This document shows positions 8,496 through 27,832 of a DNA stretch of 29,118 bases, piece after piece (within the stretch, counting starts at the first letter, position 1; the number at the start of each line of letters is the position of its first letter). The notes beneath the pieces are model-generated. The model was given only the letters and a program-made list of their open reading frames with translations, had not been told where the DNA came from and searched no databases. The DNA is taken from the IMG/VR virus record IMGVR_UViG_3300048586_000167, positions 1 to 29,118 of that record. One strand, given 5' to 3'. A program made the position numbers and the translations under genes. Origin of the DNA: a virus.

Positions 8496-8675
8496 GTCGC
8501 ACCCCTTTTCTCAGCAAGTTCCATCGGATCAGCCAGCACCCCGCCAATTCTGTTACGCGGCGCTAAGTCTTTTCTTCTCTTCTCTTTTCTTTTCTCTTCT
8601 ACGCAGAACAGTTCCATTCTGAGTGGTTTCGTTCCGGAACAGTACCGAACTGTTCCGGAACAGTTTTCGACAGTT
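8496..8675. promoter_or_regulatory. Palindrome cluster plus polypurine tract (candidate origin or operator)
   Basis: This 180-base gap is the only sizeable spacer in the leftward early operon. It contains an 18-base perfect palindrome at 8648-8665 (AACTGTTCC and its mirror). A second GTTCCGGAAC lies 21 bases to the left at 8631-8640, so GGAACAGT/ACTGTTCC can also form an eight-base stem around a five-base loop. More copies of the half-site occur as GAACAGTTCC near 8607 and CGACAGTTT near 8668. Beside it, about 8566-8600, lies a run that is almost purely pyrimidine on this strand and purine on the other. Iterated sites next to a strand-asymmetric, easily melted tract after a replication-like gene suggest an origin or a transcription control site. 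Confidence 0.55.
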
Positions 8676-9311
8676 TCACCCGCGCCGGGCGCCCTTGTCC
8701 GTCCAGCCGGAGCGGACAGCATGTTCAAGCGCCGCCTCATAGTGAGGCTGCTTCCGGTTGCCCTTGCAGTGATCCTTGAGCCAGTCATCCATCCGACTGA
8801 TCAGGACGTCATCGGCAACTGCCGCATCGCAGAGACCGATCTTCTTCAATGCCTCGCGAAGACGCTTGAGGCGCTGGTAGTAGGCCTTGTCTTCCTTCGA
8901 CAGCTCATGCATTTCGCGCCGCTCGAGCACGTCCAGCACCTGTTCAAGCACCACTGGGTGCATCAGCCGCCGCTCGCCGTCCGACAGGCACGGACGCCAG
9001 TTGCGCAGTGGGCCGAACTCCATGTTGCGCAGCTCACGCAGGCGAGAGACCGGCAGCTTGAGCATGTCTGCAAGATCATCGTCGTCATCAGGAAGGGTGC
9101 CGATCGGGCTCTCGTTCTGCGCCAGGTCGAACAGCGCACGCGCCATGCCCTGCACCTCATAGGTGGCCCTGCGGAAGGTCTTCGAACGCAGCCAGCGCAG
9201 ATGCTGCCACTTCACGAAGGAATTGCCATCCAAGCGCACCGTGCGCGGGATCGCGTATTCTTCCAGATCATCGATATCAACCACCACTGGCCGCCGCGCC
9301 GCACTCATCAC
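8676..9311 (-). CDS. Phage protein with replication-type N-terminus
   Basis: The 211-residue product begins at a GTG overlapping the upstream stop (GTGA); the ATG one codon on is equally possible. The N-terminal part (SFVKWQHLRWLRSKTF, then PIGTLPDDDDDLADMLKL) resembles the opening of DUF1376-type and other phage replication-initiation proteins, where a small winged-helix-like domain carries a 'GxLPDDDxxLA' signature. The rest is basic and helical (LSKEDKAYYQRLKRLREALKKIGL). No helicase or primase motif is present, so a DNA-binding initiator or accessory role is more likely than an enzyme. The adjoining palindromes would fit a protein acting at a site next to its own gene. Confidence 0.72.
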   Translation of the reverse strand: MMSAARRPVVVDIDDLEEYAIPRTVRLDGNSFVKWQHLRWLRSKTFRRATYEVQGMARALFDLAQNESPIGTLPDDDDDLADMLKLPVSRLRELRNMEFGPLRNWRPCLSDGERRLMHPVVLEQVLDVLERREMHELSKEDKAYYQRLKRLREALKKIGLCDAAVADDVLISRMDDWLKDHCKGNRKQPHYEAALEHAVRSGWTDKGARRG

Positions 9312-10753
9312 GCCGCCACCCCTCTTTGATTGTTGTTCGATCTGGCCAACCCCAGTTCCGTGATGTCGGCCGAGATCGTCGACGCACTGACGCCAAGCGC
9401 CTCGACCATCTGCTGGAGGGTCGCGCCTTCCGATCGCATCTGCACCACGCGCATTTGGCGCTCTGCCTTGGCATTCTTGCCACCGACCAATCCGAGCGCG
9501 CGAATATCCAAGGTCAGCGTGGAAGAGCTGATGCCCAATGCCGCCCTGATCTCGGCGAGCGTCCTGCCCGCAGAACGCATCTTCGCAACCTCTGCCCGCC
9601 GCCGCTTGATGGCAGCGTCATCCGGCACCCGAAGTCCACCGAGCCGGGCCAGATCCTTGCGCAGGGTGTTTTCCTTGACGCCAAGCGCCGCGAGCATCTC
9701 AGCCCTGCCCATCCCCTCAGCGATGAATTGCCGCAACTTCGCATCACGGGCGGCGATCGTCGCGGCCACCTGCGCCTCGCGGCGGGCACGGGCCAGAACC
9801 ACAGCCCCCTGCGGATCGGCGAACTTGACGCCGCGCGCATGCAGATCGTGCCGAACCGTCCGCGCCGTCATCCCGATCGACGCGGCGATTTCGGCGGTCT
9901 TCAGACCGCGCGCATGCAGGCGCACAACCTGGTCGCGCCGGGTCTCTCTTTCCTCGTGCATCTCGACCATGGTTTGGGATCGCGGCTTGCGCAGTGACCG
10001 CCCATCAACCAGATCCAGCCCCAAGGCATTGGCATCGCGCGCCACCGTTCTGGGCGTCACACCAAGGCGATCCGCGATATCGCGCGTCAGTTGCCCGGCC
10101 TCGATCAGCTTGCACACCTCGGCACGGCGAGCGATTTCCGCTGCCGCGCGTTCCTCGCGCGCGACAACCGCCTTGGCCTTGCGCAGCGACGGCCTTTCCA
10201 GGCGCTTGATCTCAATCCCAAGCTTGGCCGCAACCGCATTCACTGTCTGTCTGGTGAACCCGACCGCCCGCCCGATTTGCTCGGAAGACCACCCAAGGGA
10301 CGCCAGCTCCGCTATCCTCGCGTTTCGGGCGATGATCTCGGGCGGAACGACATAGGGGGTTTTTCGGCGACGGATACCTGCCGGAGGCTTGACCGGTTTC
10401 AGGCCGAGCGCGGCGAGATCATCAGAAACGGTGGTCGGGCACACGTCGAGCCGCCGCGCAATCTCCGACGACCAGACGCCCTCGGCATGCAGCCGCGCGA
10501 CATCGGCGCGGCGTGCATTGCGCGCCTCTGCAGCGCGGGCAGACGCGATATTGCGCCCAAGAATGTAGTGCGCCGCATGCTCGGCGCGCCTTCTGGCCTC
10601 AGCATCGGGGTAGCGCAACTGGTTGATCTTCGGATCCCACACCGGCGCCTGCCACGCGCTCCTGCCCACCGGCAGCACCTGCACGGCTGTATCTGGAACC
10701 GGGCACCCGTAGCGGGCGGCAACCTCAGCGGCGATCTGCTGTTCGCGGGTCAT
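9308..10753 (-). CDS. Protein with seven tandem helix-turn-helix units
   Basis: The 481-residue product is built from seven consecutive HTH units at about residues 80-120, 142-182, 209-249, 271-311, 334-374, 384-423 and 431-471. Each follows the same plan: a first helix (RRAEVAKMRSAG), a second with xxEIAxxLGV, a recognition helix beginning with Ser/Thr (SxxTVxxD) and the ending LxALGL. Examples are SSEIARRLDVCPTTVSDDL and LAEIRAALGISSSTLTLDI. Units 3-5 are joined by Arg/Lys-rich linkers. Single HTHs of this type resemble HTH_38 or resolvase-C domains, but seven in one chain with no catalytic domain is unusual. The N-terminal 70 residues may be a separate small domain. It is coupled to the methyltransferase upstream by ATGA. 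It could coat or bridge DNA at repeated sites, or recognise a long target. Confidence 0.85.
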   Translation of the reverse strand: MTREQQIAAEVAARYGCPVPDTAVQVLPVGRSAWQAPVWDPKINQLRYPDAEARRRAEHAAHYILGRNIASARAAEARNARRADVARLHAEGVWSSEIARRLDVCPTTVSDDLAALGLKPVKPPAGIRRRKTPYVVPPEIIARNARIAELASLGWSSEQIGRAVGFTRQTVNAVAAKLGIEIKRLERPSLRKAKAVVAREERAAAEIARRAEVCKLIEAGQLTRDIADRLGVTPRTVARDANALGLDLVDGRSLRKPRSQTMVEMHEERETRRDQVVRLHARGLKTAEIAASIGMTARTVRHDLHARGVKFADPQGAVVLARARREAQVAATIAARDAKLRQFIAEGMGRAEMLAALGVKENTLRKDLARLGGLRVPDDAAIKRRRAEVAKMRSAGRTLAEIRAALGISSSTLTLDIRALGLVGGKNAKAERQMRVVQMRSEGATLQQMVEALGVSASTISADITELGLARSNNNQRGVAA

Positions 10754-11451
10754 TCCTGCCCCCCAAACAGATCCGCTTGTCTTGCATCAGTGCGGTCCAT
10801 GAAGCGCATCTGCATCGGCACTTCGGTCCAGTCCCGGCGCCAGACAAACCAGGCATTGCGCTGTGGAGGAGAACCCTCGCCGGTGAAGTCGAGCTTCCAG
10901 CGCATGAGGTAGCAGTAAGAGAACGGGTTCCGATCCAGCAGATCACCGAGGCCGTTTGCCTTTGCCGCTGGCCAATCCCACGACAGCAGCAGCGCGAGAT
11001 AGCTCCAGCCTTGCATATCCAATGAGTGGCGAAGCCAACGCCCGTGGCCATCGCGCGCATTGATCAGGTTGTATGGGGGATTGGTGATGATCGCCTGACA
11101 CGGCGATGCGTTGAAACCGAAGAAGTCGCCTATGCTCGAATCCGGGCAGCCGCGATCGACCAGATCACTCGCGAAGCAGGTAAGACCCATAGCGCGAACC
11201 TCGCGCACCAAAGCACCATCACCGCACGCTGGCTCCCAAACCGCACCGCAATCGCGAATTGCCGCACCATCCAACGCAAAAAGCGCGCGGATAGCCTCGG
11301 GCTGGCCAGTTGGATAGAAGTCTTGCGGGCGCCGATCGGCGGCCTCACGGCGGGCCTCTGGCAGAGCCATCAGCAGATCCTGCCGGGCATCTACACGAGA
11401 CGCTGCGCCGGATATCGCCTTGAAGTATGGCTTGGCCGAAGGTGCATTCAT
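10750..11451 (-). CDS. Orphan DNA N6-adenine methyltransferase-like protein
   Basis: The 233-residue product has the SAM-binding motif EPACGDG at residues 73-79 and the catalytic motif TNPPYN at 123-128, the (N/D)PPY motif of amino methyltransferases that modify adenine N6. A DFYPTG segment precedes the SAM motif, as in many phage DNA methyltransferases. The protein is short, with no separate target-recognition domain and no partner restriction gene, so it is an orphan enzyme. In phages these usually protect the DNA against host restriction or mark origin and packaging sites. It is coupled by ATGA overlaps to a DnaA-like gene upstream and the seven-HTH gene downstream. Confidence 0.85.
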   Translation of the reverse strand: MNAPSAKPYFKAISGAASRVDARQDLLMALPEARREAADRRPQDFYPTGQPEAIRALFALDGAAIRDCGAVWEPACGDGALVREVRAMGLTCFASDLVDRGCPDSSIGDFFGFNASPCQAIITNPPYNLINARDGHGRWLRHSLDMQGWSYLALLLSWDWPAAKANGLGDLLDRNPFSYCYLMRWKLDFTGEGSPPQRNAWFVWRRDWTEVPMQMRFMDRTDARQADLFGGQE

Positions 11452-11693
11452 TGGCGCACCGCATGGCAGATCGAACTATGGTTCCAGCCGCCGACCCGCG
11501 CGATTTCGGCCTTGGAGAAGCCAGCCGCATGGGCCGAGGTCCACGCCGCGCGCCGTGCGACGCTGACAGGGCCGGAGCGATCCCGGACGTAGATGTCAGC
11601 CTCAGTCAGTCCATGCCGTGCAGCCACCGTGGCGATGATCGCGCGGATGCTTTGCCGAACACGCGCCCGGACCCGTGTCTGATGCCCGTTCAT
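11448..11693 (-). CDS. Stand-alone DnaA domain IV-like DNA-binding protein
   Basis: This 81-residue protein resembles only the C-terminal DNA-binding domain IV of the replication initiator DnaA. The order of elements matches: a helix ending AARHGLT, a 'DI.VRDRSGPVSVARRAAW' stretch equivalent to the basic loop and helix of domain IV, the HTH segment KAEIARVGGWNHSSICHAVR, and a terminus equivalent to the DnaA signature GG(R)DHTTVLHA. Here Trp-Asn replaces Arg-Asp before His-Ser. The ATPase domain III and helicase-loading domain I are absent. Neighbours are the HD phosphohydrolase and adenine methyltransferase genes, both with four-base overlaps. It could bind DnaA boxes, compete with host DnaA, or serve the phage origin. 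Confidence 0.8.
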   Translation of the reverse strand: MNGHQTRVRARVRQSIRAIIATVAARHGLTEADIYVRDRSGPVSVARRAAWTSAHAAGFSKAEIARVGGWNHSSICHAVRQ

Positions 11694-17969: not shown

Positions 17970-18257
17970 ATGACCGATACCGCCGGAATGCGGCCCATCC
18001 TCGTAACGACCAAACACCGCGGCGTGTTCGCGGGGCTGGTGCCGTCCGATCAGGATATCGCCGCGCCGACCATGGCCCTGAAAGAGGCGCGCATGGCGAT
18101 CTACTGGGGCACCACCAAGGGCCTGATGCAGCTCTGCGCCACTGGCCCGACCGAGAAGAGCAAGATCAGCGCGCCCGCCGATATCCCGGTGCTGCATGAC
18201 ATTACGGCCGTTTTCGACATCACGGCGGAGGCCTGGTCCAAATGGCAGGCGGCGTGA
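17970..18257 (+). CDS. DUF6948-like phage protein
   Basis: The ATG has AAAGGA seven to eight bases upstream. The 95-residue product has the pattern I associate with DUF6948: ILVTTKHRGVFAGLV near the N-terminus, MALKEARMAIYWGTT in the middle, a stretch with LCATGP, and a C-terminal helix (DITAEAWSKWQ). Family function is unknown. It ends overlapping the start of the Gly-X repeat gene by 16 bases, so the two are translationally linked. Confidence 0.72.
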   Translation: MTDTAGMRPILVTTKHRGVFAGLVPSDQDIAAPTMALKEARMAIYWGTTKGLMQLCATGPTEKSKISAPADIPVLHDITAVFDITAEAWSKWQAA

Positions 18258-18799
18258 CCCCAGATGATCCGCTGCTCACGATCGATGACATCATCCGCAG
18301 CGGCGCCTGCGTCTCGGGGGCTTATGCCACCCTAGAGCGGGTTGCCACGCGCGTGAGCGCGGCAATGCCTGCCAGTAAGATCAGAGCGCTGCTGACCGAC
18401 GACGAGCAGCGATACGTGGATCGAGCGGAACAGCAAAGCCAGGGCAACGGCGACGGCTACGGCAACGGCGACGGCAACGGCTACGGCAACGGCTACGGCA
18501 ACGGCAACGGCTACGGCTACGGCTACGGCAACGGCAACGGCTACGGCTACGGCAACGGCTACGGCGACGGCTACGGCAACGGCAACGGCGACGGCGACGG
18601 CAACGGCTACGGCAACGGCAACGGCAACGGCTACGGCTACGGCAACGGCTACGGCAACGGCGACGGCAACGGCTACGGCAACGGCAACGGCTACGGCAAC
18701 GGCAACGGCGACGGCGACGGCAACGGCAACGGCGACGGCAACGGCAACGGCAACGGCGACGGCGACGGCAACGGCAACGGCAACGGCGACGGCGGCTGA
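18242..18799 (+). CDS. Gly-X repeat protein with small N-terminal domain
   Basis: The 185-residue product has two parts. Residues 1-67 form an apparently folded helical domain (TIDDIIRSGACVSGAYATL, ALLTDDEQRYVDRAEQQ). Residues 68-184 are nearly perfect Gly-X pairs, where X is Asn, Tyr or Asp. Such a tail should be flexible and disordered. I recall a similar plan, a short domain plus Gly-Tyr/Asp tract, in other phage early proteins, but no function is known to me. A tail of this kind might phase-separate or bind RNA. The gene overlaps the previous one by 16 bases. The repeat DNA should be prone to length change, so different isolates may differ. Confidence 0.78.
   Translation: MAGGVTPDDPLLTIDDIIRSGACVSGAYATLERVATRVSAAMPASKIRALLTDDEQRYVDRAEQQSQGNGDGYGNGDGNGYGNGYGNGNGYGYGYGNGNGYGYGNGYGDGYGNGNGDGDGNGYGNGNGNGYGYGNGYGNGDGNGYGNGNGYGNGNGDGDGNGNGDGNGNGNGDGDGNGNGNGDGG
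18443..18796. repeat. Hexanucleotide-like tandem repeat, GGC(A/T/G)AC
   Basis: Every second codon is GGC and nearly every other codon is AAC, TAC or GAC, giving a (GGCNAC)n array of 354 bases. The first base of the alternating codon varies, while its last two are always AC and the glycine codon is always GGC. Such uniform codon choice points to growth by slippage or unequal crossover. The opposite strand stays open throughout, which is an artefact of the repeat. Confidence 0.95.

Positions 18800-27756: not shown

Positions 27757-27832
<76 letters not shown>

Follow-up and report, generated by a model that had tools for sequence, protein, structure and literature searches.

Seven tandem helix-turn-helix units in a replication-region phage protein, and an origin-like element that follows its neighbour

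The window, a 29,118-base virus record analysed at its full length, comes from a phage of Rhodobacteraceae-like bacteria and encodes a 481-residue protein in which seven helix-turn-helix (HTH) units follow one another in a single chain. We tentatively interpret this array protein as an accessory, early and multivalent double-stranded-DNA-binding protein that would act on extended stretches of DNA in phage replication or early transcription, a reading that we regard as plausible if not quite probable. The gene and its surroundings are arranged as follows.

9308..10753, minus strand: seven-HTH array protein, an intact and complete gene of 481 aa
10750..11451, minus strand: DNA methyltransferase (phrog_799, E=6e-42; NPPY motif)
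11448..11693, minus strand: DnaA domain IV-like protein of 81 aa (PF08299, E=6.5e-8, above the cut-off)
8676..9311, minus strand: replication protein of 211 aa (phrog_22470), related to the DUF1376-like protein of the sequence L002
8496..8675, no strand assigned: origin-like spacer with a purine tract and palindromes (AACTGTTCCGGAACAGTT, copies spaced at 21 bp), which goes with the replication gene, not with the array system

The plus strand across 9308-10753 is interrupted by a stop, and the reading frame lies on the minus strand, where the array start overlaps the methyltransferase stop and the array stop overlaps the start of the 211-aa replication gene, by four bases each. The first-pass annotation had placed the gene in an operon with a methyltransferase and a DnaA-domain-IV-like protein, and the profile matches bear out both neighbours. 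Judging from its position, the array gene is probably expressed early. No Rfam family matches across 7.5-14 kb of the window, and PADLOC returns HTH-level matches only for the array protein, giving no indication of a defence role. Elsewhere in the window, a GGCAAC hexamer is repeated about 58 times at 18443-18793 (88% matches) within the ORF 18242-18799, a 359-aa protein at 21079-22158 matches DUF5131 (PF07505, E=1e-96), and a tRNA-Ala (anticodon cgc) lies on the minus strand at 27757-27832.

The array protein begins with an N-terminal module, which is followed by the seven units.

10568..10753, minus strand: N-terminal module, residues 1-62 (QIAAEVAARYG...VWDPxxNxLRYPDAEAR), where conservation along the protein is highest
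10400..10510, minus strand: HTH unit 1, residues 82-118 (self-alignment, AlphaFold2, leave-one-out)
10214..10324, minus strand: HTH unit 2, residues 144-180 (AlphaFold2, leave-one-out; the weakest match, 17 bits)
10016..10126, minus strand: HTH unit 3, residues 210-246 (self-alignment, AlphaFold2, leave-one-out)
9827..9937, minus strand: HTH unit 4, residues 273-309 (self-alignment, AlphaFold2, leave-one-out)
9635..9745, minus strand: HTH unit 5, residues 337-373 (self-alignment, AlphaFold2, leave-one-out)
9488..9598, minus strand: HTH unit 6, residues 386-422 (self-alignment, AlphaFold2, leave-one-out)
9347..9457, minus strand: HTH unit 7, residues 433-469 (self-alignment, AlphaFold2, leave-one-out)

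Self-alignment reveals a 37-residue unit that recurs seven times, with top window scores of 85, 71, 68 and 67; in 100 shuffles the maximum averaged 32 and never exceeded 50. In a leave-one-out analysis, in which a model built from six units was scored on the seventh, each unit in turn, all seven predicted units were recovered, units 1-7 scoring 46, 17, 37, 34, 30, 40 and 38 bits where shuffles peaked at 5.7-15.4; even unit 2, the lowest at 17 bits, exceeds all 1000 shuffles. The Pfam family HTH_23 matches six separate stretches of the protein (E=2e-27; 94.6 bits against a curated cut-off of 24.6), which places the units among the homeodomain-like HTH folds. AlphaFold2, run on a four-sequence alignment, likewise folds seven three-helix units with pLDDT mostly 75-90, separated by linkers of low confidence; the overall pTM is 0.28, so the relative placement of the units is not predicted. 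From unit 1 to unit 7, start-to-start spacing is 62, 66, 63, 64, 49 and 47 residues. Thus, the protein has neither fewer than four HTH folds nor another known domain over most of its length, the two outcomes that would have argued against the proposed build.

The units share a frame and differ where an HTH would meet DNA, as had been suggested. All 21 unit pairs share G at position 11, T at position 27 and G at position 36, whereas recognition-helix positions 24, 25, 26, 29 and 30 agree in only 4, 2, 2, 2 and 1 of them. The protein is basic (pI 11.0), with 84 Lys and Arg against 53 Asp and Glu. Profile searches of Pfam, PHROG and NCBIfam find no catalytic domain, in agreement with the earlier description, and none of the HNH, GIY-YIG or LAGLIDADG domains in particular. 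The N-terminal module has neither a nuclease motif nor a family match, and a fold search of the PDB with the array model returned nothing at E < 0.001.

The palindrome-rich spacer at 8.5-8.7 kb had also been linked to the array, as a possible local target. It contains palindromes GTTCCGGAACAGT repeated at 21 bp together with the purine tract, and four sequences allow the two associations to be separated. The window combines the array with a type A replication gene and palindromes A. L002 has the same array (96%), but its replication gene is of type B, only 27% identical to type A, and its palindromes are different. Conversely, L208 carries a type A replication gene (64%), a purine tract and palindromes A with their 21-bp spacing preserved, and the array is absent from its 7.1 kb of sequence, whereas L062 carries a type B replication gene (75% to that of L002) and palindromes B (62 bp at 90%) with a different, two-HTH protein in the array's place. 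The palindromes therefore follow the replication gene in both directions and belong to it; On the evidence of L208 and L062 we reject them as the array's target, and the local site that had been suggested is in all likelihood the wrong one. The preferred reading of the palindromes is an origin-like element belonging to the replication gene, where they would serve as an origin. Direct repeats within the array gene mirror the repeated protein units and are not taken for iterons.

The same comparison bears on whether the array protein is itself a replication initiator or loader, binding at the phage origin alongside the replication protein encoded downstream. In favour of such a role, its gene overlaps that of the replication protein, and arrays are repeatedly placed in replication modules. 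However, the palindromes and the tract beside them change when the replication gene changes, irrespective of the array (window and L208 versus L002 and L062). Although L208 shares the replication gene and palindromes, its 7.1 kb contain no array; that replication module therefore does not strictly depend on one, and we consider an initiator role highly improbable.

Origin-like spacers that combine palindromic repeats with a purine-rich tract, and vary in sequence along with the replication gene, follow DUF1376-like replication genes at 8496-8675 in the window, 3687-3866 in L208, 4640-4805 in L209, 10103-10288 in L002 and 7784-7990 in L062. A perfect DnaA box (TGTGGATAA) is found in the spacers of L208 and Paracoccus phage Psul1 and is absent from those of the window and L002, the two that carry a stand-alone DnaA domain IV-like gene. 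Over the whole window there are seven one-mismatch matches to the box, against 6.1 expected, and no perfect one.

Immediately upstream of the replication gene lies a slot of variable content, occupied by seven units in the window and L002, where the array overlaps the replication gene, by two units in L062 and Psul1, and by none in L208. Its occupants in L062 (149 aa, two HTH units) and Psul1 (p21, 159 aa, two HTH_29 stretches) thus resemble the array protein in being multi-HTH proteins directly upstream of a related replication gene, but have only two units and lack the N-terminal module. In Gemmobacter, the seven-unit protein is followed by a 145-aa gene and then a D5_N primase. This variable content marks the array as an accessory element of early and replication regions and not a fixed replication protein. 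The methyltransferase position varies as well, with a different phrog_799 enzyme in L002 and a DUF3310 protein in Gemmobacter. A methyltransferase-guided search found no array beside most relatives of the enzyme, and adjacency of the two genes is not obligatory.

Close relatives of the array protein occur in L002, in L004, where the C-terminal 55 residues are identical and the contig ends, and, at 56% identity, in L003 and in a contig of a Gemmobacter aquaticus genome that is presumably a prophage. The family is rare in host genomes, with 2/395 Gemmobacter-family genomes positive at E < 1e-8, and no relatives were found in plasmids. The N-terminal module is recognisable in alignments with Ruegeria phage 45A6 and with host-genome relatives. 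Two of the latter, L056 and L057 (contigs C58 and C52 of G780, a genome in the same genus as Gemmobacter aquaticus), show the module and about two units, counted by eye, before the contig end, and in one of them the array relative lies beside a methyltransferase resembling that of the window. Both of these arrays stop at a contig end in nearly the same place, as would happen if repeated copies had interrupted the assembly. In G153, a 223-aa relative with three units is flanked by an O-like replication initiator and a GapR-like protein, and L015 combines one HTH unit with a 45A6-type C terminus. Three matches from a class-wide search with the N-terminal alignment were discarded once their ORFs were read, as they proved to be LuxR-type regulators.

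Divergence is uneven along the chain. Relative to the Gemmobacter-type homologue, the N-terminal module is 87% identical (dN 0.10); identity is 73-76% in units 1, 2 and 6, 54% in unit 7 and no more than 38-43% in units 3-5. The dN of units 3-5 is 0.53-0.81, and dS for units 3 and 5 is no higher than elsewhere, although dS is near saturation, which makes this a rough measure. At positions 24-26 and 30, the window and L002 are identical at 28/28 residues, and the window and the Gemmobacter type at 8/28, where other positions average 61% identity (permutation p=0.007, indicative only, as these positions were taken as DNA-facing from the general HTH fold and picked after alignment). The putative DNA-facing surface thus appears, at an indicative level, to be among the least conserved parts between the window/L002 and Gemmobacter lineages. 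This divergence of the recognition helices fits re-targeting and would also be compatible with relaxed constraint, given the few lineages.

A different function would be sequence-independent coating or compaction, in which the seven units together confer avidity for double-stranded DNA of any sequence and the protein, nucleoid-like and encoded beside a modifying methyltransferase, hides phage DNA from host nucleases or silences transcription. The pI of 11, the weak conservation of units 3-5 and the fast change of DNA-facing residues all point this way, as does the adjacent methyltransferase in the window, L002 and one host-genome relative. In addition, a viral small-terminase ring of HTH motifs is reported to recognise DNA through multiple sequence-independent interactions (PMC4737164). 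Nevertheless, most of the methyltransferase relatives have no neighbouring array and the Gemmobacter array lacks that methyltransferase. The complete identity of the recognition-helix residues between the window and L002 also speaks against coating, though weakly because the two differ little overall. Coating is the strongest of the alternatives but remains rather unlikely.

The best experimental precedent for consecutive HTH units along one long site is Cbp1 of Sulfolobales, an archaeal host protein whose three HTH units are products of duplication and lie in 5'->3' order on a single CRISPR repeat (PMC10883916). It shares tandem HTH units with the array but has only three. The Cbp1 structure 2lvs matches the array model with a probability of 0.96 but E=0.36, and the Cbp1 family NF040595 scores 25.3 bits on the array protein, far below its cut-off of 140.

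A looser precedent is the T5 gene D5 protein (AAS77164.1), which has several HTH-like segments (perhaps four, by eye), lies within a replication module, flanked by ligase and helicase genes, and is annotated in the T5 record as DNA-binding and as needed for both replication and late transcription. Unlike the array protein, it is acidic (pI 6.3) and only 255 aa long. This parallel raises the possibility that the array protein is a multivalent transcription factor whose single composite target lies at an early or a late promoter, and that it switches phage gene classes as the T5 note describes for D5. In favour, phrog_323, a family of D5-like regulators, matches three stretches of the array protein (E=2e-14). 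These are HTH stretches only, however, and repeats inflate matches of this type; a single pairwise BLASTP of the two proteins gave E=0.003 over 78 residues, which is not significant as full-length similarity and reveals no homology beyond the HTH fold, and no shared operator was found. We consider a promoter switch of this kind unlikely.

The first-pass annotation described the build as very uncommon, and this holds only in part: seven units are at the high end, but strings of two to five recur in many phages. A structure search of viral models returned many multi-HTH phage proteins, and unit counts were checked in several, giving four plus an HNH domain in HJTV-4 gp23, three to four in BcepSauron and in Proteus phage ZX7, and two in several actinophages. 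Seven has at least one independent parallel, ORF18 of Bacillus phage PM1 (BAM99099.1, 364 aa), where the leave-one-out analysis recovers seven units at 20-61 bits (shuffles <= 9.7). Like the array, ORF18 is a tandem of seven without an enzyme domain, and its genomic region holds DnaD-like and SSB-like genes. It belongs to another HTH subtype (WK motif), lacks the N-terminal module and has no detectable full-length homology to the array protein; it is annotated as hypothetical. Our literature search, which took in few subscription journals, found no published description of a seven-HTH phage protein. Multi-HTH strings recur across phages of very different hosts, several in replication regions, and nearly all are labelled 'hypothetical protein'. 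The array protein is therefore a genuine and well-defined case of a poorly studied kind, extreme in unit number but not unique in build.

Some of these strings are attached to other domains. HJTV-4 gp23, from a haloarchaeal virus (L045, 1435-2409), is annotated as hypothetical and carries four tandem HTH units and an HNH nuclease domain. The proteins of phrog_2554, HTH-GP88 proteins of Rhodobacterales phages whose family profile matches the HTH part of the array protein (E=1.7e-22), share its arrangement of an N-terminal module followed by HTH units; the example from Ruegeria phage 45A6 (ANH49055.1), whose host is of the same bacterial family, has three units and then a GP88 domain (PF17338) that the array protein lacks. 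In principle, the array could be the DNA-reading part of a homing endonuclease-like protein, its nuclease lost or never present, reused as a regulator. HTH strings do occur on nucleases, as in gp23 and in the BcepSauron protein annotated as an endonuclease, and HNH families in PHROG match the units (phrog_20467, E=5e-15). Those matches reflect shared HTH units, however, and no nuclease motif is present in the conserved N-terminal module, which is fused to GP88 instead in relatives that share it. Such an origin is very doubtful.

We thus return to a multivalent protein that acts on extended DNA. In favour are its seven units, basic pI, position in a replication region, the multi-HTH slot, the lineage-specific DNA-facing residues and the precedents of Cbp1 and D5. 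In a carrier that appears to be a temperate-type phage, the seven small units would be strung like beads on linkers that the model suggests are flexible. Each unit, from its fold, should be able to enter one major groove, and together they could bind a stretch of about 50-80 bp, or several stretches at once, with a partial sequence preference arising from their differing recognition helices. A Cbp1-like mode seems most likely, in which the units would lie colinear on the DNA and occlude promoters or organise the template around replication; on the comparative evidence, the protein would not bind the adjacent origin-like palindromes. No DNA target sequence was found for it. The weak conservation of units 3-5 may, if it reflects relaxed constraint, argue against precise reading. 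A bolder version of sequence reading, which we rate as decidedly unlikely, is that phages use HTH strings as an expandable DNA-reading code, a TALE-style counterpart covering about 50-80 bp in which each unit reads a few base pairs by its own recognition helix and lineages swap, add and re-tune units, from two to seven per slot.

The two-by-two comparison separates the array from the origin-like module, which makes the spacer at 8.5-8.7 kb a poor choice as its presumed target. The seven-unit array and its close relatives offer an approachable system in which long specific reading, as by Cbp1, could be set against a non-specific coat.
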